DNA of 64,000 nt from Thermococcus sp. Lineage in GTDB: Archaea > Methanobacteriota_B > Thermococci > Thermococcales > Thermococcaceae. Shown one piece after another: positions 8,437 through 25,746 of the stretch. The notes beneath the pieces were generated by a model. That model worked only from the letters and a program-made list of their open reading frames with translations. It had not been told where the DNA came from and made no database searches. The position numbers and the translations under genes were made by a program. The stretch spans positions 1 through 64,000 of the forward strand of contig NZ_JAMOQU010000019.1 of the NCBI RefSeq assembly GCF_027063845.1, given 5' to 3'. The first letter of the stretch is position 1, and each line of letters opens with the position of its first letter.

Positions 8437-10614
8437 TCAAACCCCCTCGCAGAACTGGTCAAAGCTCACAACGGCTCTCAAACGGGCCGTCTCAACGTCT
8501 ATTATCGGCACGCGCGCTGGAGTGGGAACTATGTTCACCATCTTCTGGAACTCGGTCTGGGCCTGCCAGGTTCCGCTGTTGATGACGAAGACGCCGTTGT
8601 AAATCCGGTACTCCATAACGTGAACGTGGCCGGCCTGGAAGAGGTCAGGAACGCTCTCGATGACGAGGGTATCCTCGGGGTCGGGAGCTATGGGAACCTT
8701 GTTCCCGAAGGTCGGCGCGAGGTGACGGAGCTTGAGCAAATCAACCATCGCCTCGGCGGGCCTGTGGTGGCTCCTCCCAGGAATGAAGTCAACGACGTCC
8801 TCTATGCCCCTTCCGTGCGCGATGAGAAACTCCCTGCCGTGGAGGTTTATCACCGCAGGGTTGCTTATTATCACGGCGTTTTTGAGCTTGTATATCGGCT
8901 TGGCGTACTCCTCGTAGAAGCCGGGCTGTGGCAGAGCGGTCCTCGCGGCGTCGTGGTTGCCCGGGCCGATGAACATGGTTATATGCTCCGGAACGTTGCG
9001 GAGGAGATTGGCCAATGCCTCGTACTGGTCGAAGATGTCGGGAATAGCCAGCTCGTTGTACTGGCCAGGGTAGATGCCGACGCCGTCAACGACGTCACCG
9101 CCGATTATCATGTACTTAATCCTGCTCACGAGCTCCTCCTCGGCCCTGCTGTTGACCTCGCCGTTGAGCCATTCGAGGAACTTCTCAAAGGCCTTCTCGC
9201 AGAACTTGTTGGAGCCAACGTGGATATCGCTCAGCAGGATAGCGTAGACCTTCTCTTCCAGTGGAGGCTTCTCGCGCCTGAACTTCGGCACATCCGGGAG
9301 GAAGACGCGGTTGGCGAAGAAGATTCCCCTGCCCGGCTGACCGCGGAAGGCAACGACCGAATCGGGCATTATAGCGTTGTATGCCTGTGAAGCGTTCTCC
9401 TTGTCCCTGCCGAGGAAGACCTTTATCCTCCCGGTCGCGTCCTCGACCTCGAACATGTAGCCCTTCGCCGTTTCGCGCTTGTCGTTGACGAGGCCGATTA
9501 TCGTGACCTCGTCGTCCCGGACGTAGCTCAGCTTCGCGATGTCTATGACCGTCCCGATTTCGGGGTTCTCTCGGAAGATTCTGCGCATCTTCCTGAGCCT
9601 CGACTTGAAGTAGCTCGAGTAGGCCTGGATTATTATTTCACCCTCCTTGCTCGCGGCGTTCTTGACCTTCGGGGCTTCAAACTTCACGTTCTTGACGTCG
9701 AACGTTATCTCCCAGTCGTCGGGAATCTCCTTCGCGCGATAGCGGAAGCCCTCTTTGGGCCTTATCACAACGTCTTTGTACGTCGAGTAGCTCTTCTCGC
9801 CCTCGACGTCTTCTCCGACGTACGCTATGGGAATCCCGTAGTCGCCGTAGACGATTTTGGGCTTCACTCCGTTTCCATTCTCGCCGTTCTCGTAATACTC
9901 CTCACTGTCGGCGTAGTTTCCGTAGCCGTTACCGTTCAGGGGCTCGGCTTCCACTGGAAGTGAGTCCTCGACGACCTCGGTTAGTGACGAATCCAATGAA
10001 CCAGCGGCCTCATCCACGAGTTCTTCAGGTTCAGGTGTTCCAGTGGAAACAAAACTCTCCCCCTCCGAAATCTCGCTGGAAATTGGTTCTTCAACGGGAT
10101 TAGATGCAGGAGATTGCTCTGATTCAATGGTTGTTCCAGTGGAAATTGAAGTCCCACCAACAATTTCAGCAGGTTCAACGCTCTCTTCCCCAGAAGAAGC
10201 CGTGACAACCTCGCTTTTCACAACATCTCCAGTGGAAATAGAACCCGATGCTTTCATGGATTCAACGTTTTCAGAAGAGGGAATTTCTTCGGGCCGAGAG
10301 GCTACAACAGTTTTAGAAACTGGAGTTTCATCGGATTCAGCAAATTCCTCACGTATTTCCTCCTGAGAAGCCCCAAGAGGCTCTTCTTCCGAAACCTCAA
10401 GGGGGGTCCGCTCAGTGAGCTCTCCAGTGGAAAAGAGACCCTTCTCGGCGAGGAAGGCCTCGGCTGTGGATGAGTCTATGACGAAGGTCCCCCGAGCTTT
10501 GGCGAACTTTATCAGCTCGGCAAGCGTGAAGTCCCTCTTGTAGTGGGGTTCGAGGAGGTAGTAGGCGGAGGGAGTTATCAGGTATTTATTCTTGATTAAA
10601 TCCTCAATCAGCAT
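8437..10614 (-). CDS. polB: DNA polymerase D small subunit DP1 (3'-5' exonuclease, calcineurin-like phosphoesterase)
   Basis: Small subunit of PolD, with proofreading exonuclease activity. The 725-residue protein has an N-terminal helical domain (about 1-60), a long acidic Ser/Glu/Pro-rich linker (about 65-240), an OB-fold region (about 300-430) and a C-terminal metallophosphoesterase. Phosphoesterase motifs are LSDIHVG near 461, GGDVVDG, GPGNHD near 550, IAHGRG and GHVHVM near 661. The ATG at 10614 overlaps the orc1 stop as ATGA, so translation is probably coupled. Oddly, the linker DNA carries five ORB-like motifs; the four in the linker core each encode a Ser-Thr-Gly tripeptide (positions 10037-10441, plus 9948-9967). 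Confidence 0.96.
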   Translation of the reverse strand: MLIEDLIKNKYLITPSAYYLLEPHYKRDFTLAELIKFAKARGTFVIDSSTAEAFLAEKGLFSTGELTERTPLEVSEEEPLGASQEEIREEFAESDETPVSKTVVASRPEEIPSSENVESMKASGSISTGDVVKSEVVTASSGEESVEPAEIVGGTSISTGTTIESEQSPASNPVEEPISSEISEGESFVSTGTPEPEELVDEAAGSLDSSLTEVVEDSLPVEAEPLNGNGYGNYADSEEYYENGENGNGVKPKIVYGDYGIPIAYVGEDVEGEKSYSTYKDVVIRPKEGFRYRAKEIPDDWEITFDVKNVKFEAPKVKNAASKEGEIIIQAYSSYFKSRLRKMRRIFRENPEIGTVIDIAKLSYVRDDEVTIIGLVNDKRETAKGYMFEVEDATGRIKVFLGRDKENASQAYNAIMPDSVVAFRGQPGRGIFFANRVFLPDVPKFRREKPPLEEKVYAILLSDIHVGSNKFCEKAFEKFLEWLNGEVNSRAEEELVSRIKYMIIGGDVVDGVGIYPGQYNELAIPDIFDQYEALANLLRNVPEHITMFIGPGNHDAARTALPQPGFYEEYAKPIYKLKNAVIISNPAVINLHGREFLIAHGRGIEDVVDFIPGRSHHRPAEAMVDLLKLRHLAPTFGNKVPIAPDPEDTLVIESVPDLFQAGHVHVMEYRIYNGVFVINSGTWQAQTEFQKMVNIVPTPARVPIIDVETARLRAVVSFDQFCEGV
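9948..10441 (+). repeat. Array of five ORB-like motifs embedded in the DP1 linker coding sequence
   Basis: TCCAGTGGA cores begin at 10039, 10135, 10228 and 10423 in the same orientation, spaced 96, 93 and 195 bp (about two times 97). A palindromic relative, CTTCCACTGGAAG, lies at 9948-9960. The copy at 10037 continues into AAACAAAACTCT, matching the full origin ORBs except that a C-run replaces the G-run. In the DP1 frame each of the four encodes Ser-Thr-Gly. Surrounding linker sequence is not visibly repeated, so these are not simple tandem duplications. Orc1 binding is inferred. Confidence 0.7.
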
Positions 10615-11867
10615 CAGAACAACCTCCTCTGCTTGGAGAGGGTGAGGGTAAGCAGGCTCCTAACCTGCTCGTCGTGGCGGTAGATGTTCTTCACCATGTA
10701 GGGGGTGACGTTTAGCCTTATCTCCTTCGTTCTGCCGTAGCGGCCCTTGCTCACGACCTTGGCGTTAATTATGCCGAGCATGTCGAGCTCGTTGATTAGG
10801 TCGCTCACGCGCCTCTGGGTTAACGGCTCGACGTCAAGGTGGTCGCAGAGGGACTTGTAGACGGAGTAAACGTCGCCGGTGTTGGCCGGCAGCTCACCGT
10901 TCTCGTCGAGCATGACTATCGCGTAGAGGAGGACCTTCGAGTGGAGCGGGAGGGTCTTTATGACTTCCTCCATCGTGTCCTGCTCAATCTTCTCCTGTGC
11001 CTTCCAGACGTGCCTTTCGGTTACCTTGCTCGCCCCCTCGCGCTCCGCTATCTCTCCAGCGACACGAAGCAAATCAAGAGCCCTCCTCGCGTCGCCGTGC
11101 TCGCGAGCAGCTAAAGCCGCACAGAGGGGAACGACCGCATCGTCAAGAACGCCCTCGTAGAAGGCCTCCTTTGCGCGCTGCATGAGAATGTCCCTGAGCT
11201 GATTGGCGTCGTAGGGTGGGAAAACGACTTCCTCCTCGCTCAAACTCGACAGAACGCGGGCGTCAAGATACTCCTTGAACTTGAGGTCGTTTGAAATTCC
11301 AATTATACTGACCTTCGCCCTCGAGAGCTCGGTGTTTATCCTCGTGAGGGAGTAGAGTATGTCATCCCCGCTCTTCTTGATGAGCTTGTCTATCTCGTCC
11401 AGAACGATGATTACAAAGCGCTCCCTCGCGTCTATAACTTCCTTTAGCTTGGCGTAGACCTCATCGGTCGGCCAGCCGACGAGGGGAACCTCTACACCGC
11501 TCTCCGCCTTGAAGTGGTTGACTATCCTCGCGAGAACGCGATAGTGGGTGTCGACTATCTCACAGTTGATGTAGATGACCTCGACGGGAATGTTGTACTT
11601 CTCGGATATCTTCTTGAGCTCCTCGGTTACGAACTTCACCGTCACGGTTTTACCGGTTCCGGTCTTGCCGTAGACGAAGACGTTCGAGGGCGTTTCACCC
11701 CTTAAAACCGGAACGAGGATATGAGCCAGCTCATCAATCTGCTCGTGTCTGTGAGGGAGTTCCTTTGGCGTGTAGCTGTGCCGCAGGACTTCCTTGTTCT
11801 TGAAAATCTTCTTGGCGTGGAGGTACTTCTCGAATATCGACGTCAGGTAGTCGTCCCTGTCCCCCAT
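10614..11867 (-). CDS. cdc6: Orc1/Cdc6 replication initiator
   Basis: AAA+ initiator that binds ORB elements and recruits MCM at the origin. From the ATG at 11867 the protein is 417 residues. Walker A GKTGTGKT lies near residues 66-73, Walker B IIVLDEID near 150-157, and a sensor-type segment is SIIGISND. The C-terminal winged helix includes PLTQRRVSDLINELDMLG. It is near identical in layout to Pyrococcus Orc1. In-frame GTG (11882) and ATG (11876) lie upstream; I prefer 11867 because GGTGGAG sits nine nt before it and the family N-terminus is short. An ORB-like CTCCACCGGAAAT (11877-11889) overlaps the leader, which would allow autoregulation. First gene of the operon orc1-DP1-DP2. Confidence 0.97.
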   Translation of the reverse strand: MGDRDDYLTSIFEKYLHAKKIFKNKEVLRHSYTPKELPHRHEQIDELAHILVPVLRGETPSNVFVYGKTGTGKTVTVKFVTEELKKISEKYNIPVEVIYINCEIVDTHYRVLARIVNHFKAESGVEVPLVGWPTDEVYAKLKEVIDARERFVIIVLDEIDKLIKKSGDDILYSLTRINTELSRAKVSIIGISNDLKFKEYLDARVLSSLSEEEVVFPPYDANQLRDILMQRAKEAFYEGVLDDAVVPLCAALAAREHGDARRALDLLRVAGEIAEREGASKVTERHVWKAQEKIEQDTMEEVIKTLPLHSKVLLYAIVMLDENGELPANTGDVYSVYKSLCDHLDVEPLTQRRVSDLINELDMLGIINAKVVSKGRYGRTKEIRLNVTPYMVKNIYRHDEQVRSLLTLTLSKQRRLF

Positions 11868-12128
11868 GGCTCCCATCTCCACCGGAAATCATACTCTCAC
11901 GCCGTATTACCGTCGTAATTAAGCCCACAAATGGGAACATTTTGTCAAACATGCCAGATATTATCTGGATTTAATCCAGATATTTCTTGAAATTTTGCAC
12001 ATTGTATCAAATCTCCACCGGAAGCACCGGATACAGTGGAAAGCATAGCAAGTGTGGGGTCTGGGTTTATATGCCTTGTTGAACAGGAGAATGTAAAAGG
12101 AGAATGCAGAAAGAAGGGGAAGTTGCCC
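11868..12128. promoter_or_regulatory. orc1 leader and left part of the origin region
   Basis: The 260-bp gap before orc1 holds ORB-like elements CTCCACCGGAAAT (11877-11889), CTCCACCGGAAGC (12013-12025) and ACAGTGGAAAG (12033-12043, followed ten nt on by GTGGGG). A perfect dyad, TATCTGGAT/TTA/ATCCAGATA, lies at 11962-11982. The orc1 promoter must lie here, but no unambiguous TATA box was pinned down. Confidence 0.55.
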
Positions 12129-12728
12129 CTAAAGGTAGCCCCTATCCTGTTCTTCGGGAAGAACCTCAGCGAGAAGTGCCAAAGCCTCGTTCTCGGGCAT
12201 CCCCACACGGGAAACCAGAAAGTCAAGAAGCTCCTCTCTGCTCGCACCCTTGCGAAGTCTCTCGTAGACCATCGCGAGCACGCGCTCCTTTAGCAGGGCC
12301 TCAAACTCCTCCTCGAGGTTAAGCGCCGAAACGGCTGAGAGCAGACCAACGAGAAGGGCCGAGAGTGCGTCGTTGAACTCCGCCTTACCGAGGTTGGAGG
12401 TGTCCAAGTCAACCGCGAGGTAAACGTCGTCGTTCATGCCCATAAGGAGGAACTTCATCAGGTTGATTTCCGCGTTCAGCCGAAGGAGTGCATGGTAGAC
12501 CTTGAGCTTTTCGTCCTTGGTCATGGAAAACGTTTCAAGACCCATAGGGGCCAGCAGTCGTATGAAGCCTTCTCCGAACGAGAGAAGCAGTGTGAAGGGC
12601 ATCTTGGGGTGCTCAGCCACATAGAGGTTCGGTTCAAGTTGCTTGACCTCCCAGGGCAGGTCCACGATGTCGTTGGCATCGTCCTTGCCGGAGCGCAACC
12701 AGTCGAGAACAACATCCCTAATCTCCAC
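12129..12728 (-). CDS. Conserved hypothetical protein lying inside the origin region
   Basis: The predicted soluble protein is about 199 residues, acidic, with an alpha/beta N-terminal half and a helical C-terminal half; no recognised catalytic motif. The overall pattern (short beta hairpins, an HALLRLNAEINLMKF helix) vaguely recalls YbjN/type III chaperone-like folds, a weak impression. GTG at 12728 is chosen because GGTGGT ends four nt upstream; frame-compatible TTG/GTG codons lie slightly further out. It is flanked on both sides by ORB-containing DNA, so it sits within the origin region and may be co-inherited with orc1. Confidence 0.75.
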   Translation of the reverse strand: MEIRDVVLDWLRSGKDDANDIVDLPWEVKQLEPNLYVAEHPKMPFTLLLSFGEGFIRLLAPMGLETFSMTKDEKLKVYHALLRLNAEINLMKFLLMGMNDDVYLAVDLDTSNLGKAEFNDALSALLVGLLSAVSALNLEEEFEALLKERVLAMVYERLRKGASREELLDFLVSRVGMPENEALALLAEVLPEEQDRGYL

Positions 12729-12980
12729 GGGAACCACCAACCGAAATACGGCGTTGGTGAATTAATGGTTTGCCCTTCCAGAGGAAACGGGAAAGTCAAA
12801 TGCCCATAGATGTGCACGAGGTTTGGTATTTGGAAACCCGAAACAGATTAGGATTGGTTATTTCCACTGAAAGGAAAATGAACATGTGTGGCTATCAAAA
12901 GATGAGCACTAAAGAACAGTTTAGTTCAGTTTAGTTAAACAATAACGATTGCAGAATTAGAAAAGTTAAATAGCTTATAT

Positions 12981-13007
12981 CCCCCCCAGAGTTTTGTTTC
13001 CAGTGGA
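12981..13007 (-). promoter_or_regulatory. Extended ORB element, left arm of oriC
   Basis: On the minus strand it reads CTCCACTGGAAACAAAACTC followed by TGGGGGGG, giving the full ORB architecture of dyad core, A-rich spacer and G-run. It is inverted relative to the right-hand ORB 260 bp away. Confidence 0.85.
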
Positions 13008-13264
13008 GCGGGCTTTTGAAGCTTCCCATAGAAGACCGATTTAGAGTTGATAAAAAGCTCCCATTCTTCTTATCGGTGCCAGTTTTTATATCTTTCTATG
13101 AACAAACAACTAAATTAATGTGGACAATGCACGAAAATTTTGAACAGTATAATAAGATTTTGCACAATTTATTGAACGATTCAACAGCTACGTACTTAAA
13201 CAATCTCCCTGAATCCCCATTACATTTAACTACCCTGTCAAAACCGTCCGTTTTCCGAAAATGG

Positions 13265-13292
13265 GTTCCAGTGGAAATGAAACTCTGGGGGG
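13265..13292 (+). promoter_or_regulatory. Extended ORB element, right arm of oriC
   Basis: It reads GTTCCAGTGGAAATGAAACT followed by CTGGGGGG, the same architecture as the left ORB on the opposite strand. A hairpin (GGTCTTTTCGATG with CATCGAAAAAGACC, one bulged base) follows at 13291-13319. Confidence 0.87.
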
Positions 13293-13322
13293 TCTTTTCG
13301 ATGAGCATCGAAAAAGACCTTT

Positions 13323-13338
13323 GTTTCCACTGGAAAAA
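13323..13338 (-). promoter_or_regulatory. Mini-ORB element
   Basis: On the + strand GTTTCCACTGGAAAAA; the minus strand carries TTCCAGTGGAAACAAAGG, a mini-ORB lacking a long G-run, adjacent to the right ORB and its hairpin. Confidence 0.75.
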
Positions 13339-13414
13339 CTGTTCCTGATAGTATTTTAATGACCATCAATGAATTGTTTTGAGTATAGGACATCTTTTTA
13401 AGGTTCGAGTGGAA

Positions 13415-14580: not shown

Positions 14581-14624
14581 CCACCGAACTTTACCCCCAT
14601 TAAGGGTATTCCCGGGTGAGTCTC

Positions 14625-15680
14625 ATGGCGAAGAAGAAGGTTGAAGAGGTTAAAGAGCTTGAGGAGTTCGAGGAGCTTGAAATAGCCGAAAGCTCACCGT
14701 CATCGTCCTCAAAGAAGAAGGAAAAAGAAATCAAGACCCTTGAGGATTTGCCTGGCGTTGGTCCTGCCACTGCTGAGAAGCTTCGCGAGGCCGGTTACGA
14801 CAGTATTGAGGCCATAGCCGTTGCTTCACCGCTCGAGCTCAAGGAGATAGCGGGAATAAGCGAAGGTGCCGCGCTCAAGATAATCCAGGCCGCCAGAGAA
14901 GCCGCTAACATCGGAACCTTCATGCGCGCCGACGAGTACATGGAGAAGAGGAAGACCATTGGCAGGATTTCCACTGGAAGCAAAGCCCTCGACAAGCTCC
15001 TCGGAGGCGGAATAGAGACACAGGCCATAACCGAGGTCTTCGGTGAGTTCGGAAGCGGAAAGACGCAGCTCGCACACACCCTCGCCGTCATGGTCCAGAA
15101 ACCGCCTGAGGAAGGTGGCCTCGGCGGTTCGGTGATATGGATTGATACCGAGAACACCTTCAGGCCCGAGAGGATAAGGCAGATAGCTGAGGCCCGCGGT
15201 TTGGACCCCGACGAGACGCTCAAGAACATCTACGTGGCAAGGGCTTTCAACAGCAACCACCAGATGCTTCTCGTTGAAAAGGCGGAGGAGATAATCAAGG
15301 AGAAGGCCTCAACAGACAGACCTGTTAAGTTACTCGTCGTTGACTCGCTCATGGCCCACTTCAGGAGCGAGTACGTCGGCAGGGGAACCCTCGCCGAGAG
15401 ACAGCAGAAGTTGGCCAAGCACCTCTCCGACCTGCACCGTCTTGCCGACCTCTACGACATAGCGGTCTTCGTGACGAACCAGGTGCAGGCGAAGCCCGAT
15501 GCCTTCTTCGGCGACCCCACGAGGCCCGTCGGCGGTCACATACTTGCTCACAGCGCGACGCTCAGAATCTACCTCAGGAAGGGCAAGGCCGGAAAGAGGG
15601 TTGCAAGGCTCATAGACAGCCCGCACCTGCCCGAAGGAGAGGCCGTCTTCAGGATTACCGAGAAGGGAGTTGAGGATTGA
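14625..15680 (+). CDS. radA: RadA recombinase
   Basis: Archaeal Rad51/RecA-family recombinase that forms ATP-dependent filaments for homologous recombination. The protein has a charged Lys/Glu/Ser-rich N-terminus, a helix-hairpin-helix domain ([16 protein letters not shown], about residues 44-60) and the RecA core: Walker [10 protein letters not shown] near 141, Walker [12 protein letters not shown] near 235, and the [13 protein letters not shown] loop. The ATG at 14625 follows GGGTGA by five nt; an in-frame GTG at 14616 lies inside that ribosome-binding site. The conserved ISTGSKALD segment is encoded by an ORB-like ATTTCCACTGGAAGC (14967-14981). Confidence 0.97.
14967..14988 (-). promoter_or_regulatory. 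ORB-like motif inside radA
   Basis: ATTTCCACTGGAAGCAAAGC encodes part of a conserved RadA segment (Ile-Ser-Thr-Gly-Ser), so the match may be fixed by protein constraint alone. Synonymous choices nevertheless preserve the ORB core. Confidence 0.4.
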
Positions 15681-15900
15681 CTTGGATTATCATGTTTTCT
15701 GTTTGTTTTTGTACTCTTACCCCTTTTGACTAGTTCTTTTTATTTGGATAATTCTACTTTATGTAAGAGTACTATTATGTAACACAACTTATCAACAGTA
15801 AAGTTTATATTAGTTGCCAGTTATTATCTGTAACAGCTTGTGGGTTGCGCTAAATGCCTGTCTGACTTGTCCACCCGGGTGAAGAAGAGAGGTGTTTTAG
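15681..15900 (+). promoter_or_regulatory. radA-SIR2 intergenic region with terminator-like T-runs and a promoter
   Basis: T-rich stretches just after radA (GTTTGTTTTTG, then CTTTTTATTTGG near 15740) resemble archaeal intrinsic termination signals. AAAGTTTATATTAG near 15800-15813 is a candidate TATA element for the SIR2-like gene. The composition becomes AT-rich here. Confidence 0.4.
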
Positions 15901-17202
15901 ATGAATAGGGGTAATACCGTTTTAGTAATCGGTGCGGGTGTGGATAAGACTCCCGGGATAGACATGCCTTTAGCTGCACAGCTTGTTCCAGAACTGGCAA
16001 GGTTTTCTGAGGAGGAAGGGAAAGAAATTGAACAAACGATAAGATCATTTCTCCCGGGGTTAAGATTTTCGTTCAATAGATTTATCAAGGAAGCAATAGA
16101 ATCAATAACAAAATCTGATGAGAACCAAATGGAAGATCTTGTAAGAAAACTAGAATACCAAAAAAATCAGATAGATAGTTATGATGAAAAAGATAAAAAA
16201 TTGGCAGAGCTACTCATAAGATTATTCAAGAAAATTAAGACCATTCAAGAGGGTAGCAAACTGGATGATGAAACCGTTGAATTGATAAAAGAAGTTTTTG
16301 GAGAGGATATCATAGCCGAAATAGAGGACGAATCAATAATCGAATTTACAAAACTCTCATTTTCGGATTCTTTCAAAGTCATAATGAAGAGAGTTTTAAG
16401 ACAAAGTTTGAAAGAACCAGAAAACCCGATATATAGAGTATTGAGCACCCATTTTTTGGACATAGAAACTTTACTTGTTGAAACATTTCTTGGTTTTTAT
16501 AATGAGAAACCCTCTGATATTAAAAAATACCTCTACATTTCTTGGATGATGTGGGCATATCTAAAAATGAAAGAAAATGAAGTTTTATCAAAAATAGATG
16601 AAAATAGCATACCTTTTTATTCTATGATTCCAAAAGATTTTAAAGTTATTTCTTTTAATTATACTACCTTTTTATCCAAGGTCCTACCGCATGATAATTA
16701 TTTGTATTTCCATGGCTCCCTTAATGAATATCTTAGAATGGATCTTAGAGATTTACTAAATATCGAAGATGCAGACGAAATTAATGCGTTTTTGGAAAAC
16801 ACTATAAAACCGAATATTGATTTTAACAAGAACAAATACGTAATACCAGGTATAATTCCACCTCTGAAACTTAAACCAGTATTGTCAAATAAATTTATTG
16901 AAATATGGTATAAAGCAAGTGAATGGATCCGTAATGCTGATAAGATCATTGTCATTGGATACTCATTTAACTATGCTGATGAACATTTTAACGATATCAT
17001 ACGAGCAAATAGAGGAAAACCAATTTATATTGTGGGTCCATCCGCTGGAAGTTTAAGGAGTAGGCTTAGTAGAATATTTGGTTTTCGAGAGGATGATTTT
17101 ACTGAAACGACGTTTCAAGGTAAGAGATCATATCAATGTCACAATATCCACATCATTGAAGCAAAAGCCCACGAAATCAACTTGGAAGAAGGGTTTAAGT
17201 GA
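15901..17202 (+). CDS. SIR2-like domain protein, probable antiviral defence NADase (AT-rich)
   Basis: A 433-residue single-gene protein with features of the SIR2-like family used in anti-phage systems. The N-terminal nucleotide loop is VLVIGAGVDKTPG (residues 7-19), followed by an inserted helical region with charged coiled-coil character (about 60-230). The core resumes with VISFNYTT near 250, YFHGS near 264 and the characteristic IIVIGYSFNYADEHFND near 349-365. In other SIR2-like defence proteins this core degrades NAD+; activity here is inferred. The gene is far more AT-rich than radA and nucS on either side, and is flanked by AT-rich spacers, pointing to transfer. GAGGTG lies six nt before the ATG at 15901. 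Confidence 0.75.
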   Translation: MNRGNTVLVIGAGVDKTPGIDMPLAAQLVPELARFSEEEGKEIEQTIRSFLPGLRFSFNRFIKEAIESITKSDENQMEDLVRKLEYQKNQIDSYDEKDKKLAELLIRLFKKIKTIQEGSKLDDETVELIKEVFGEDIIAEIEDESIIEFTKLSFSDSFKVIMKRVLRQSLKEPENPIYRVLSTHFLDIETLLVETFLGFYNEKPSDIKKYLYISWMMWAYLKMKENEVLSKIDENSIPFYSMIPKDFKVISFNYTTFLSKVLPHDNYLYFHGSLNEYLRMDLRDLLNIEDADEINAFLENTIKPNIDFNKNKYVIPGIIPPLKLKPVLSNKFIEIWYKASEWIRNADKIIVIGYSFNYADEHFNDIIRANRGKPIYIVGPSAGSLRSRLSRIFGFREDDFTETTFQGKRSYQCHNIHIIEAKAHEINLEEGFK

Positions 17203-17427
17203 CAAAGCTTACAGAAAAGTTCTAGTGGGTTTTAAATTACTAATTGTTTTATTTTGATATCCTTTGTAGTATTATGTGTTATTTCTAAATGAATTGGAAT
17301 GCTAAAAGTATTAAAAATCATATTGTGAATAATGTGTGTTTAGAATACAAGATACTAGATTATAATCTAAGAATGCAAGTAGCTTTGTCAGTTTAAACCT
17401 TATAAACGGCCCCTCAAACTCTTCTCC

Positions 17428-18177
17428 ATGCCCAAGGTTGAGCTCAGGGAGAACCCATCTCCAGAGGAAATAAAACTCCTCGTCGATTTGGCCGTTTCCT
17501 CCGAGGGAGTGCTTACAATCTTCGCCTGCTGTCGGGTTCACTACGACGGCAGGGCCAAAAGTGAACTCGGCCCAGGCGACAGGGTGATTATAGTTAAACC
17601 CGACGGCTCTTTCTTGATACACCAGAAGGAGAAGCGAGAGCCTGTCAACTGGCAACCGCCAGGAAGCGTCGTTAAACTTGAGCTCCGCGAAAAGCCCGTT
17701 CTCGTCTCGGTCAGGAGGAAGCCCAGGGAAACGCTGGAGGTCGAGCTCGATGAGGTCTACCTAATCACGGTCTTCCACGCAGAGGACTACGAGGAGCTCG
17801 CTTTGACGGGTAGCGAGGCCGAGATGGCCGAGCTCATCTTCGAGAACCCCGAGGTGATAGAGCCCGGCTTTAAGCCACTCTACCGCGAGAAGCCCATTAA
17901 GCACGGCATCGTTGACGTTTTGGGGGTTGACAGGGACGGAAACCTTGTAGTTCTCGAGTTGAAGCGCAGGAGAGCGGATTTGCATGCGGTCAGCCAGCTC
18001 AAGCGCTACGTCGAAACCCTCCGCGAGGAGCACGAGAACGTCAGAGGAATCCTCGTGGCCCCTTCACTCACCTCTGGCGCCAAAAAACTGCTCGAAAAGG
18101 AGGGCCTTGAGTTCAGGAAGCTCGAACCGCCGAGGAGGGGCAGAAAATCGAGGGGAAGACAGCTCAGGCTGTTTTAG
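17428..18177 (+). CDS. nucS: Mismatch-specific endonuclease NucS/EndoMS
   Basis: Dimeric endonuclease that cleaves both strands at mismatches (mainly G-containing and T-T), guided by PCNA. The 249-residue protein has an N-terminal beta-sandwich DNA-binding/dimerisation domain and a C-terminal PD-(D/E)XK nuclease with GIVDVLGVDRDGNLVVLELK around residues 158-177. The C-terminus is basic and ends in QLRLF, a PCNA-binding peptide. The ATG at 17428 is preceded by TATA-like CTTATAAAC about 30 nt upstream, suggesting a leaderless message. An ORB-like ATCTCCAGAGGAAATAAAAC (17457-17476; one core mismatch) lies in its first codons. Confidence 0.95.
   Translation: MPKVELRENPSPEEIKLLVDLAVSSEGVLTIFACCRVHYDGRAKSELGPGDRVIIVKPDGSFLIHQKEKREPVNWQPPGSVVKLELREKPVLVSVRRKPRETLEVELDEVYLITVFHAEDYEELALTGSEAEMAELIFENPEVIEPGFKPLYREKPIKHGIVDVLGVDRDGNLVVLELKRRRADLHAVSQLKRYVETLREEHENVRGILVAPSLTSGAKKLLEKEGLEFRKLEPPRRGRKSRGRQLRLF
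17457..17481 (+). promoter_or_regulatory. ORB-like motif at the 5' end of nucS
   Basis: CTCCAGAGGAAATAAAACTC matches the origin ORB core and A-rich extension with a single core mismatch (A for T). It lies about 30 bp inside nucS. Significance uncertain because it is coding. Confidence 0.4.
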
Positions 18178-22102: not shown

Positions 22103-23072
22103 CCTTTTCCTGGGCGTTGCACTGCTCGTTTCCTACGTCCTCCTCTTCTACAACCATCACATTACTGGCCGAAAGGCGCTCCTCTACTACTCGTTAGCCT
22201 GGCTGAGCCTCGCCGTTCCGGTCTTCTCCTCGGATATGGGAGTCTACATCGTTGGCCTGGCCTTTTTCTCGGCCTTTCTGTGGGCCGGCAACGTCGAGGC
22301 GATAGACGAATTGACCCTAAACAATGAAACAGCGAGGAGTCTGCTCTACCTATCGATTCTCCCGGTGCTCATCGTTTTCCTGTTCTATCCTGAGCACGAA
22401 ACGTCAGCTTATATTCTTCTCGGCCTGTGGATTGTCCTCTCGGCCGTTCTCCTCGGGTTCTATGGGGGGAGAACGCTCCTGCCGATGTCGGTCCTTCAGG
22501 CTTTCCTCGGCGTCGTCGTGGCACTCTCAGGATTGATTCCCTTCTTCCGGCTCCGCATCGTTCCCGCTTTCCTCGGCGTTGTCCTCGCCTTTGAGTCGGT
22601 TAGAACCTTCCTGAGGACTTCTTTCGTCGGGGACTTCTCCATCGGTTCAATCAAGGACGTTGGCCTCGATGGAAAACCCGGTCTCTTTCTCGTCCCCTCT
22701 GTCCCTGAGGACGTTCTCTCCTCCGCCCTTGTGTTTTCACGGAGTCCGCGGAACGCTCCCAACTGGTTCTGGATAACGACGGTTCACGACGAGCGGACAA
22801 TCTCGCCGACAAACCTCCCCAAAATTCTCGACATGGCGGTCAAGTTCATGAGGGAAGCTGGGGAAGCCGGTAAAAAGCCCATCATCGTCATTGACGGTCT
22901 CGATTATCTCGTCCTCGAAAACGGCTTCTCCAGCGTCCTCAAGTTCCTGTCGGCGCTCAGGGACTACGCCCTCGTCCACGGCGCCACGGTGTTTATAGTT
23001 GGGAGTGACGATTTCCTCTCAGAGAGGGAGAGAAAGCTTTTGAGGAGCATCGTGGGTGAGGGCAATGCTTGA
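22089..23072 (+). CDS. Membrane protein with C-terminal DUF835 domain
   Basis: The 327-residue protein has about six TM segments in residues 5-175 and a cytoplasmic DUF835-type domain from about 185 to the end. The domain includes LFLVPSVPEDV, an IIVIDGLDYLVLENGF stretch resembling a degenerate Walker B, and IVGSDDFLSERE. DUF835 proteins are expanded in Thermococcales and of unknown role; a sensory or ATPase-like function is possible. GTG at 22089 with GGTGG three nt upstream; overlaps the preceding amidohydrolase gene by 14 bp and the following macrodomain gene by 8 bp. Confidence 0.8.
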   Translation: MNYLDLFLGVALLVSYVLLFYNHHITGRKALLYYSLAWLSLAVPVFSSDMGVYIVGLAFFSAFLWAGNVEAIDELTLNNETARSLLYLSILPVLIVFLFYPEHETSAYILLGLWIVLSAVLLGFYGGRTLLPMSVLQAFLGVVVALSGLIPFFRLRIVPAFLGVVLAFESVRTFLRTSFVGDFSIGSIKDVGLDGKPGLFLVPSVPEDVLSSALVFSRSPRNAPNWFWITTVHDERTISPTNLPKILDMAVKFMREAGEAGKKPIIVIDGLDYLVLENGFSSVLKFLSALRDYALVHGATVFIVGSDDFLSERERKLLRSIVGEGNA

Positions 23073-23604
23073 GGTTGTTAAAGGTGACATCACCCGCTTT
23101 CCGGCCGAGGCGATTGTAAACGCTGCGAACCGCTACCTCGAGCACGGTGGTGGTGTCGCCTACGCCATAGCCAAGGCCGCCGCTGGAGACGCCCGCGAGT
23201 ACATCAGGATAAGCAAGGAAGCCTTGAGAGAACAGCTTGGAAAGGACTCAATGGAGCACGGCGAAGTCGTTGTAACGCCGGCGATGAGACTCGAGCGATA
23301 CGGGATTAAGTACGTCATTCACACGGTCGGCCCCTACTGCGGCGGCCGCTGGGACGGGGATAAGAAGGAGAAGCTCAGGAAGGCTATACTGGGGGCGCTC
23401 AGGAAGGCAGACGAGCTGGGCGTTAAGAGCGTGGCCTTCCCGGCGATAAGCGCCGGAATCTACGGCTGTCCCCTTGAGGAAGTCGTTAGAACCTTCAAGG
23501 AAACAGTTGAGGAGTTTTCAAGGGAAGCGAGAAGCGTGAAGAATGTTTACCTGGTGCTTTATTCGGAGGATGCCTACCGGAAGGCGCTTGAGACTCTTTG
23601 TTAG
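23065..23604 (+). CDS. Macrodomain protein (ADP-ribose/O-acetyl-ADP-ribose binding)
   Basis: Single macrodomain of 179 residues. The conserved ligand-binding NAANRYLEHGGGVAYAIAKAAG (split as IVNAANRYL and HGGGVAYAI), HTVGPYCGG and AISAGIYGCP motifs are intact, typical of MacroD-type ADP-ribosyl hydrolases that remove ADP-ribose from proteins or deacetylate O-acetyl-ADP-ribose. The ATG at 23065 follows GGGTGA; the gene overlaps the DUF835 gene by 8 bp, so it is translationally coupled to it. Confidence 0.9.
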   Translation: MLEVVKGDITRFPAEAIVNAANRYLEHGGGVAYAIAKAAAGDAREYIRISKEALREQLGKDSMEHGEVVVTPAMRLERYGIKYVIHTVGPYCGGRWDGDKKEKLRKAILGALRKADELGVKSVAFPAISAGIYGCPLEEVVRTFKETVEEFSREARSVKNVYLVLYSEDAYRKALETLC

Positions 23605-23701: not shown

Positions 23702-23733
23702 TCTTTATTTTAACTCGCAAGGGTGATATGATG

Positions 23734-25746
23734 ATGGGTTATAATAGTAGGAATTCCGGTTTGCTTCTGGCAATCTTTGTTGGGATGCTATTGGTTGTTC
23801 CGGTAGTTGTGGCTTTTGATGTTAAATTGGCTTTTGTTGAGTCTCAGGATGATTACTCTGGAATATATTTCACAAATGGTCTCTGGGTGATTTATCAAGA
23901 GAACTCCACATCACATATGCACTCCACAAGGATTGTAAACGCTTCATCTGGTGAGACCGTTTTAACGATTAATGATTTGCTCGGTTCAGTTGTGCCAGTT
24001 GATGAAGGTTACCTGCTAGTGTCAACGGTTTCGAAAGAAAACTCTCTTCGGCTATATCGATTGAATGGTGAAAAGTATACACTCGTGTGGAAGATTGACA
24101 CTAGTAGGTATGGCTGGGTTAGCTACATCCTGCCTGTGCATGAAAAGAATCTTATTCTTGCTGGAACTGTTGATGCATCTAAAGAGAATTTAGGGGGACA
24201 TTATATTATTGGTGTTGACTTCGGCGGTAAACTCAAATTTGCGACAAACCTCCATGTAGTTGGGAATACTGTTTCGAGTATACTTCCTGCTGGGAATGGA
24301 AAGTATCTGGTTGTAGTTCCCGGTTTTGGCAAAGGGTTGCCTTATTTTGGCCTTATAGATGAATCCGGTAACGTTTTGAAGTCTGTTAGAATTAATTATC
24401 CTGTTGCATCTATTAAAATTTATATTCAAGATGACAAATTTGTAATGGCGTCATGGCGTGATAAGAGTGAGGGATATATACCGGATATAAAGACCTATTA
24501 TGGAATATGGACTCTGAATCTGACACCAGTAGCCATTGTTGAACTTCCGTATGAATTCCTTGGAGCTGTGCCAATTTTCGATAACAATTCCCTTTACTTG
24601 TTCATGGTAAAACAATTAAACTCAACGTGTACTCTTGTAGAGTCTAAGTATCTTTTAAACGGTACTCTTCAGTGGAGAAGGGATGTTCAGAGCTTAAAGT
24701 TTAGTGAGCCTTTAAAGGGCTACTGGATGTCCACAAACTCAATTAGCACGGTATTGCTTCCTTACCATAACGTCCACGTTGGGGTGTACCCATGTGGAGC
24801 TACTGTTAACGTTGTGGCCATTGATTTCAGAAATGCGGTTCCCCTTGCGAGTACTTATCTACCCATGGGAAAGGGCCCAAACTATTATTTCGCTTATTAT
24901 GATGCCAAGTACATTTATACTGGTCCTAAGGTTTATCTTATTGACACATCTTGGGTTCCCTCTGCAGTGCTTATAGATTCCATACCTCCTGGGAACGTCA
25001 CTATCGATGAAAGACACTTTGGATTGACGCCGTTATACACCCGGCTTAGCGCGGGGAGACATGAAGTACGTATAGTCCGTGGGAACTACTCTCCGGTAGA
25101 ACGTGTTTTGACGATTGGTCCTCATGAGGGTATTAGACTCTCTGTACACCTTAGTCCGTTGAATGCAACGCTTTGCCTTAACTCTACTCCGGTTGCCGAG
25201 GTTGATATCGTGCCAGAGGGTATAACCGTTTATACCCCTGCTAAAGTTTCTCTCCACAACGGCACGTACATACTTATCTTTAAGTCTAAGGAATATCCGG
25301 CACAGTATGGTAGCGTTAGAAAAACTGTGGAACTTTCGCCAAACGAAACCGCCTTTATAAACGTTGAGCTTCCACTAATACGTTCCGAACTCATAGTTAC
25401 ATCAAACGTCGTGAATGCCACAGTCTACGTGGATGGAAAACCTGTCGGACGTAGCCCAGTTCGGGTGTTTGTTATTCCTGGGTTCCACAACATTACAGTG
25501 AGGGCAAATGGCTACATTATGAAATCAGTTGTGGTTAATGTAACAAAGCCGACTCTCAACGTCTCTGTTGATTTATCCCCTGTTGTTGAGCCTGGGACTT
25601 CACCGATAAAGCCTCTTTCAAACACAACACAAATTCTAACTTCAAGTACCAGTAAAGTCAACAATAACTCCTCTCACTTGGTCTGTGGGCCTGGTTTAAT
25701 TGTGATTTTTGCAGTAAGTGTCCTGATTGTAAGGGTAAGACTATAA
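23734..25746 (+). CDS. Secreted surface protein with PEGA domains and CGP-CTERM anchor
   Basis: An extracellular protein of about 670 residues. It has an N-terminal signal peptide (LLAIFVGMLLVVPVVVA), a large beta-rich region (about 30-410, propeller-like repeats rich in Tyr, Val, Gly), and two PEGA-like domains: GNVTIDERHFGLTPLYTRLS near 412 and ATVYVDGKPVGRSPV near 565. A Ser/Thr/Asn-rich stalk and the C-terminal CGPGLIVIFAVSVLIVRVRL signature follow; a Cys-Gly-Pro before the last TM is the Thermococcales CGP-CTERM sorting/lipid-anchor signal. Three ATGs follow GGTGAT; 23734 has the best spacing (six nt). More AT-rich than its neighbours. Ligand unknown. Confidence 0.85.
   Translation: MGYNSRNSGLLLAIFVGMLLVVPVVVAFDVKLAFVESQDDYSGIYFTNGLWVIYQENSTSHMHSTRIVNASSGETVLTINDLLGSVVPVDEGYLLVSTVSKENSLRLYRLNGEKYTLVWKIDTSRYGWVSYILPVHEKNLILAGTVDASKENLGGHYIIGVDFGGKLKFATNLHVVGNTVSSILPAGNGKYLVVVPGFGKGLPYFGLIDESGNVLKSVRINYPVASIKIYIQDDKFVMASWRDKSEGYIPDIKTYYGIWTLNLTPVAIVELPYEFLGAVPIFDNNSLYLFMVKQLNSTCTLVESKYLLNGTLQWRRDVQSLKFSEPLKGYWMSTNSISTVLLPYHNVHVGVYPCGATVNVVAIDFRNAVPLASTYLPMGKGPNYYFAYYDAKYIYTGPKVYLIDTSWVPSAVLIDSIPPGNVTIDERHFGLTPLYTRLSAGRHEVRIVRGNYSPVERVLTIGPHEGIRLSVHLSPLNATLCLNSTPVAEVDIVPEGITVYTPAKVSLHNGTYILIFKSKEYPAQYGSVRKTVELSPNETAFINVELPLIRSELIVTSNVVNATVYVDGKPVGRSPVRVFVIPGFHNITVRANGYIMKSVVVNVTKPTLNVSVDLSPVVEPGTSPIKPLSNTTQILTSSTSKVNNNSSHLVCGPGLIVIFAVSVLIVRVRL

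Follow-up and report, generated by a model that had tools for sequence, protein, structure and literature searches.

The open reading frame at positions 15901-17202 of a 64,000-nucleotide stretch of a Thermococcus sp. genome (the whole stretch is called the window below) is supported as a foreign gene with a SIR2 fold, of antiphage type. It is probably a horizontally acquired member of a bacterial family of SIR2/AbiH-type abortive-infection effectors, with predicted NADase activity, and it represents an uncatalogued form of SIR2/AbiH-type predicted defence gene and a rare instance of transfer of such a gene from bacteria to a hyperthermophilic archaeon. NAD+ depletion by bacterial SIR2 proteins has been studied in detail, and no Pfam AbiH or SIR2_2 match was found in the other Thermococcus genomes searched. 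What surprises here is the arrival of the gene in a hyperthermophilic archaeon without its usual partner, together with the promiscuity of its bacterial relatives.

The gene and its window

The gene is an intact open reading frame of 433 amino acids with an ATG start and no internal stops, lying between radA (14616-15680) and nucS (17428-18177). Its GC content of 0.329 and GC3 of 0.288 (33% and 29%) compare with 0.566 and 0.710 for radA and 0.567 and 0.720 for nucS (56-57% and 71-72%), bearing out the suggestion in a preliminary description of this DNA that the gene is AT-rich and of foreign composition. The gene and its candidate expression signals are as follows.

15804-15810, + strand: TTTATAT, TATA-box-like element, read from the sequence
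15887-15894, + strand: GAGAGGTG, Shine-Dalgarno-like, 6 nt ahead of the ATG, read from the sequence
15901-17202, + strand: SIR2/AbiH-type gene, 433 aa, 33% GC, predicted NAD+-consuming abortive-infection effector

A bacterial promoter scan gave matches not above those in shuffled sequences. The (E+K)/(Q+H) ratio of the encoded protein is 5.1, the most thermophile-like value of the whole family described below. Within the window, no restriction-modification (R-M) or other immune gene adjoins the SIR2-like gene, whose neighbours are radA and nucS.

Several other features of the window and genome were recorded. An orc1/cdc6-like gene, the basis for a putative position of the SIR2-like gene close to the origin, lies at 10614-11882 (- strand), its 3' end overlapped by a tRNA-Arg (cct) called by ARAGORN at 10622-10707 (+ strand). 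A second AT-rich stretch with no convincing gene (12750-13378, GC about 0.38) is flanked by an open reading frame at 12129-12740 and a potassium-channel-like gene at 13379. By the look of its sequence, the gene at 23056-23604 is macrodomain-like, and it is followed at 23728-25746 by an AT-richer gene for a secreted-looking protein of 672 aa with PEGA-like-looking repeats. Elsewhere in the genome (G000), type I R-M-like modules on contigs C129 (L088) and C72 (L089) have AT-rich unrelated genes among them, and L088 carries a 351-aa open reading frame between its hsdM-like and hsdS-like genes.

SIR2 fold and catalytic motifs

An AlphaFold2 model built on an alignment of 29 family members (mean pLDDT 87.9, pTM 0.85) has a SIR2-type Rossmann fold, and its best Foldseek match is 8yhx_J (E 5.5e-6), with SIRT5 and archaeal Sir2 proteins next (all at probability 1.00). 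The SIR2-like identity first proposed from the sequence is thus upheld by a structure prediction of good confidence. The motifs follow the order of Sir2 (GAG loop, ISFNYT, YFHG, GYSF), with the glycine loop, catalytic Asn and catalytic His all in their places, as expected of the SIR2 superfamily.

15931-15960, + strand: GAGVDKTPGI, NAD-binding glycine loop, residues 11-20; G11, A12 and G13 invariant in 29/29
15973-16635, + strand: helical insertion, residues about 25-245, family-wide (DSSP of the AlphaFold2 model)
16657-16659, + strand: predicted catalytic Asn N253, ISFNYT motif, invariant in 29/29
16711-16713, + strand: predicted catalytic His H271, YFHG motif, invariant in 29/29
16957-16995, + strand: GYSFNYADEHFND, family signature, residues 353-365; ADEHFND invariant in 29/29

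GAGVDKTPGI is the counterpart of GAGISxxSGIP in canonical Sir2, and GYSFNYADEHFND that of the Sir2 GTS motif. In a profile alignment with the Sir2 deacetylase of the host and its orthologues, which scores weakly (E 0.02, probability 2%), N253 falls on the Asn of ITQNVD and H271 on the His of ELHG, the expected positions. The two residues are the equivalents of N133 and H171 of DSR2, whose replacement (N133A or H171A) in each case abolishes NADase activity (PMC11087589). Members of the 29-sequence alignment contain 0-7 cysteines (one in the Thermococcus protein), none of them conserved. The zinc module of the deacetylases is therefore missing, as it is in SIR2_2 proteins (PMC12700824); the Thermococcus protein likewise has no Pfam match to the sirtuin deacetylase family (PF02146) and no Cys4 zinc-binding set.

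Sequence profiles point the same way at low scores. The best Pfam match is AbiH (PF14253, E 3e-5), at 24.6 bits under the curated cut-off of 30.9; it aligns residues 220-367, which take in the catalytic core and the last stretch of the helical part, with profile positions 114-245 of 260, and the same profile matches 13/29 members at E up to 0.01. Matches of the Thermococcus protein to the PADLOC AbiH and SIR2 profiles range from 1e-4 to 4e-3, and across the family the PADLOC SIR2, Aga_SIR2 and AbiH profiles give weak but consistent matches, to up to 23 members. NCBIfam returned nothing useful, a sequence search of the PDB gave no meaningful match to the protein, and SIR2_2 (PF13289) had no match in its own genome.

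The helical insertion

The GAG loop and the catalytic Asn are 235-245 aa apart in members of the family and 79 aa apart in the host Sir2 deacetylase and its orthologues, so that the large insertion is real. It had also been described as unusual for this protein, a point that is not supported: the insertion occurs in each of the 29 aligned members (28 bacterial), with 41% identity between the Thermococcus protein and the nearer bacterial copies and 13 invariant residues. With a mean identity of 35%, residues 25-150 vary more than any other part except the C-terminus; in the second half of the helical domain, archaeon and bacteria are 48% identical, with 10 invariant residues. Because the insertion is present and conserved in all bacterial copies, it belongs to the family as a whole rather than being an adaptation to an archaeal virus, leaving the idea of a sensor for an archaeal virus unsupported.

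A bacterial family

The first relative came from a plasmid search: it is 43.6% identical over 97% of the length, and its gene immediately follows a type I R-M operon on a Methylococcus plasmid of 25.9 kb. Searching genomes and viral contigs with the single sequence yielded no relative. A two-sequence profile of the Thermococcus and Methylococcus plasmid copies gave 33 loci among 84,980 species genomes. The viral and phage collections searched gave no relative. Most loci encode proteins 41-47% identical over the full length (three are at about 28%), and all are labelled bacterial, from Gamma-, Beta- and Deltaproteobacteria, Bacteroidota, Nitrospira and Actinomycetes. The family is compact and full-length, occurring in Proteobacteria, Bacteroidota and Nitrospira. 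In a tree, the Thermococcus protein groups weakly (80/100) and on a long branch with the Bacteroidota, Myxococcota and Nitrospirota copies, a placement that names no donor. The GC content of the gene is below that of its locus in most copies. Three copies (L028, L034, L035) are partial and two (L006, L011) are broken by in-frame stops, a decay that fits a costly gene, as expected.

The usual home of this family, which the preliminary description missed, is in the R-M and other immune operons of bacteria. In about 22 of 32 bacterial loci the gene lies within or directly behind an immune operon, and in about 15 of the 32 this is a type I R-M operon; Pfam matches at representative loci confirm HsdM, HsdS and HsdR. 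At several loci the coupling is tight: in L004, L017 and L021 the gene and an hsdM/hsdS-type gene overlap by 4-26 nt, in L011 there is a 4-nt overlap with an unlabelled gene, and in L024 and L027 the gene is placed between hsdS and hsdR at distances of 2-12 nt. Elsewhere it comes after a type III res gene (L013, L015), a type IIG enzyme (L016, L033), DISARM DrmMI (L030), GmrSD-HNH (L025) or Cas3 (L023). Genomes typically devote no more than a few per cent of their genes to immunity, and immune neighbours at about two thirds of the loci would be far above such a background. Counted beyond the approximately 22 is L009 (Shewanella), where GajB of Gabija lies two genes upstream. Its protein is near-identical to that of L014 (Nitrincola), whose neighbour is HsdR, suggesting that the gene has been swapped between immune systems. 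About nine bacterial loci have no recognisable immune neighbour, among them L005, L008, L010, L012, L022, L029 and L031, as well as L026, which is included because its contig ends there. In the Neisseriaceae metagenome-assembled genomes L008 and L012, the copy immediately precedes a short gene and a RelA/SpoT gene. Some of the type I R-M operons with a SIR2-like gene have Fic/RhuM-type genes as additional passengers (L003 11451-12431, L006 5152-5931, L024 and L027).

The radA-nucS slot in Thermococcus

None of 114 other genomes of the phylum has the SIR2-like gene, and these include every other Thermococcus sampled, so that the proposed check of its presence across Thermococcales finds it not conserved. 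In 20 of 23 other Thermococcus genomes in which both genes were seen, radA and nucS are separated by 33-100 bp. The claim that the gene is inserted in a conserved neighbourhood is right in that the junction is generally tight; it overlooked that the junction is also a small variable slot, with unrelated cargo elsewhere in Thermococcus.

15681-17427, no strand: extra DNA from the radA stop to the nucS start, 1747 bp (1750 bp including the stop codon)
17379-17406, + strand: GTAGCTTTGTCAGTTTAAACCTTATAAA, nucS-proximal element native to Thermococcus, also found upstream of a nucS-like gene in G016 (contig C13)

The gaps in the remaining three genomes (G002, G003 and G020) are 400, 2692 and 1062 bp and hold unrelated cargo, mainly membrane proteins; in G016, about 1.75 kb of cargo, related to the cargo in G003, comes after a second radA copy. 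To either side of the SIR2-like gene, the intergenic sequence resembles that on the corresponding side of the G016 cargo (0/300 shuffles as high). The differing cargo and the shared flanks indicate a variable slot in which the open reading frame differs while the flanks are of Thermococcus type.

An inverted repeat (17189-17209/17381-17401) was considered as the ends of a small transposon and rejected: the right arm belongs to the native sequence upstream of nucS and is shared with G016, the left arm lies at the end of the SIR2-like gene, and the pairing is probably due to chance. Of the two radA-nucS intervals of G016 (L072 on contig C13, and L054), one is tight and the other contains the cargo of about 1.75 kb; this genome is reported as 4% contaminated, so that two strains may be binned together. 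In G003 (L061, 855-3545), RadA is an 896-aa open reading frame with an apparent intein between two conserved halves.

Proposed mechanism and alternatives

For the Thermococcus protein we infer NAD+ cleavage, off/on control, cell suicide and a trigger, in the following way. The Rossmann core would bind NAD+ via the GAG loop, and N253 and H271 would cleave it. The helical domain would hold the enzyme off, probably by oligomeric packing, until infection is sensed, whereupon NAD+ would collapse and the infected cell would no longer support the virus. In bacteria, the gene is mostly a passenger of R-M or other immune operons; there it plausibly serves as a back-up suicide device and may stand in for PrrC in some of the type I operons. 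As a lone open reading frame behind a Thermococcus-like promoter region, the archaeal copy has either to function on its own or to react in trans to the immune systems of the host. The viral collections searched gave no relative and so offer no pointer to a viral trigger.

Two versions of this acquired-effector reading divide its likelihood between them and add nothing to it. One is that the helical domain recognises a conserved component of the virus by direct binding and thereby activates the NADase, with the R-M association being defence-island hitch-hiking; DSR2, which binds the tail tube protein, serves as model. This version has a substantial claim without being the expected outcome. Autonomous sensing is favoured by the varied partners and by the solitary copies, that of Thermococcus included, and the variability of residues 25-150 is in keeping with it, but the helical second half is well conserved, unlike a fast-evolving virus sensor. 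The other version, which we regard as rather doubtful, is a guard or back-up switch, held off by an R-M complex or responding to its failure in the manner of PrrC, and acting in trans in Thermococcus. The placement between hsdS and hsdR in L024 and L027, which is that of PrrC, favours a back-up role, as does the close linkage with hsdM/hsdS at several bacterial loci; the same Thermococcus genome has HsdM homologues on contigs C129 and C72, which make a role in trans possible, and a general hypothesis of immunity-suicide coupling has been put forward (Makarova et al. 2012, PMC3506569). However, similar proteins accompany unrelated systems (type I, III, IIG, DISARM, GmrSD, Cas3, Gabija), which makes a specific partner doubtful, and the partnerless copies and the near-identical L009 and L014 proteins beside GajB and HsdR also count against it. 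More speculatively, and unlikely on present evidence, one portable SIR2 suicide protein might sense something shared by many unrelated immune systems when they fail or act, as a general back-up module with, for example, cleaved DNA or loss of modification as the cue. If so, it would be pluggable behind type I, II and III R-M, DISARM, Gabija and CRISPR systems, and would work alone in a hyperthermophilic archaeon.

Readings outside the family's proposed role fare worse. SIR2 folds do other chemistry and one relative is carried by the Methylococcus plasmid, in line with an NAD-dependent protein ADP-ribosyltransferase or deacylase having a housekeeping or plasmid-stability role; the missing zinc module, the patchy distribution and the immune neighbours in about two thirds of the loci make this improbable. 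It is hardly credible that an assembly artefact or contaminating bacterial DNA was joined to the Thermococcus contig: the genome is a draft of 134 contigs and the gene is foreign in composition, but both flanks are intact and Thermococcus-type, with intergenic stretches like those at the matching positions of another Thermococcus, relatives have a variable slot at this site, and the protein is the most thermophile-like of its family. For the preferred reading of an acquired abortive-infection effector, the free-standing archaeal copy allows a clean test of whether an R-M partner is needed or the protein itself senses infection, bacteria offer the same test through near-identical copies beside different immune systems, and a heat-stable archaeal protein would be convenient for structural work.

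Comparison with known systems

The Thermococcus protein shares with DSR1/DSR2 and ThsA, which deplete NAD+ on phage sensing, a SIR2 core with the catalytic Asn and His. DSR proteins have about 1000 aa or more; unlike DSR2, the Thermococcus protein of 433 aa ends shortly after the SIR2 core, without a large C-terminal sensor, and unlike ThsA it lacks a SLOG domain. Its top structural match, chain J of 8yhx (titled 'trimeric HerA'), which we take to be the SIR2 subunit of a SIR2-HerA complex, extends over nearly the whole length (498 alignment columns, TM 0.45), but the identity is 15%, the rmsd of 9.5 implies a different arrangement of domains, and no herA gene adjoins the Thermococcus gene. 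The anticodon nuclease PrrC is encoded between hsdS and hsdR. A location in a type I R-M operon, as expected of a PrrC-like suicide arm, is seen at about 15 of 32 bacterial loci and not in the Thermococcus window. AbiH (PADLOC PDLC02345), a lactococcal abortive-infection protein and the best Pfam match, differs in that the family of the Thermococcus protein is longer and mostly tied to R-M operons.

The closest precedent in terms of gene context is in Makarova et al. 2012 (PMC3506569), whose relevant passages list AbiH as a Sir2-superfamily enzyme, describe the coupling of PrrC with PrrI, and place Sir2 enzymes in type I R-M loci as a predicted suicide arm. These passages give no family definition, structure or residues for the R-M-linked Sir2. 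The present family resembles it as a Sir2 gene in type I R-M loci, and extends beyond it in also lying by type III, type IIG, DISARM, Cas3, GmrSD and Gabija genes and in having an archaeal copy that stands alone.
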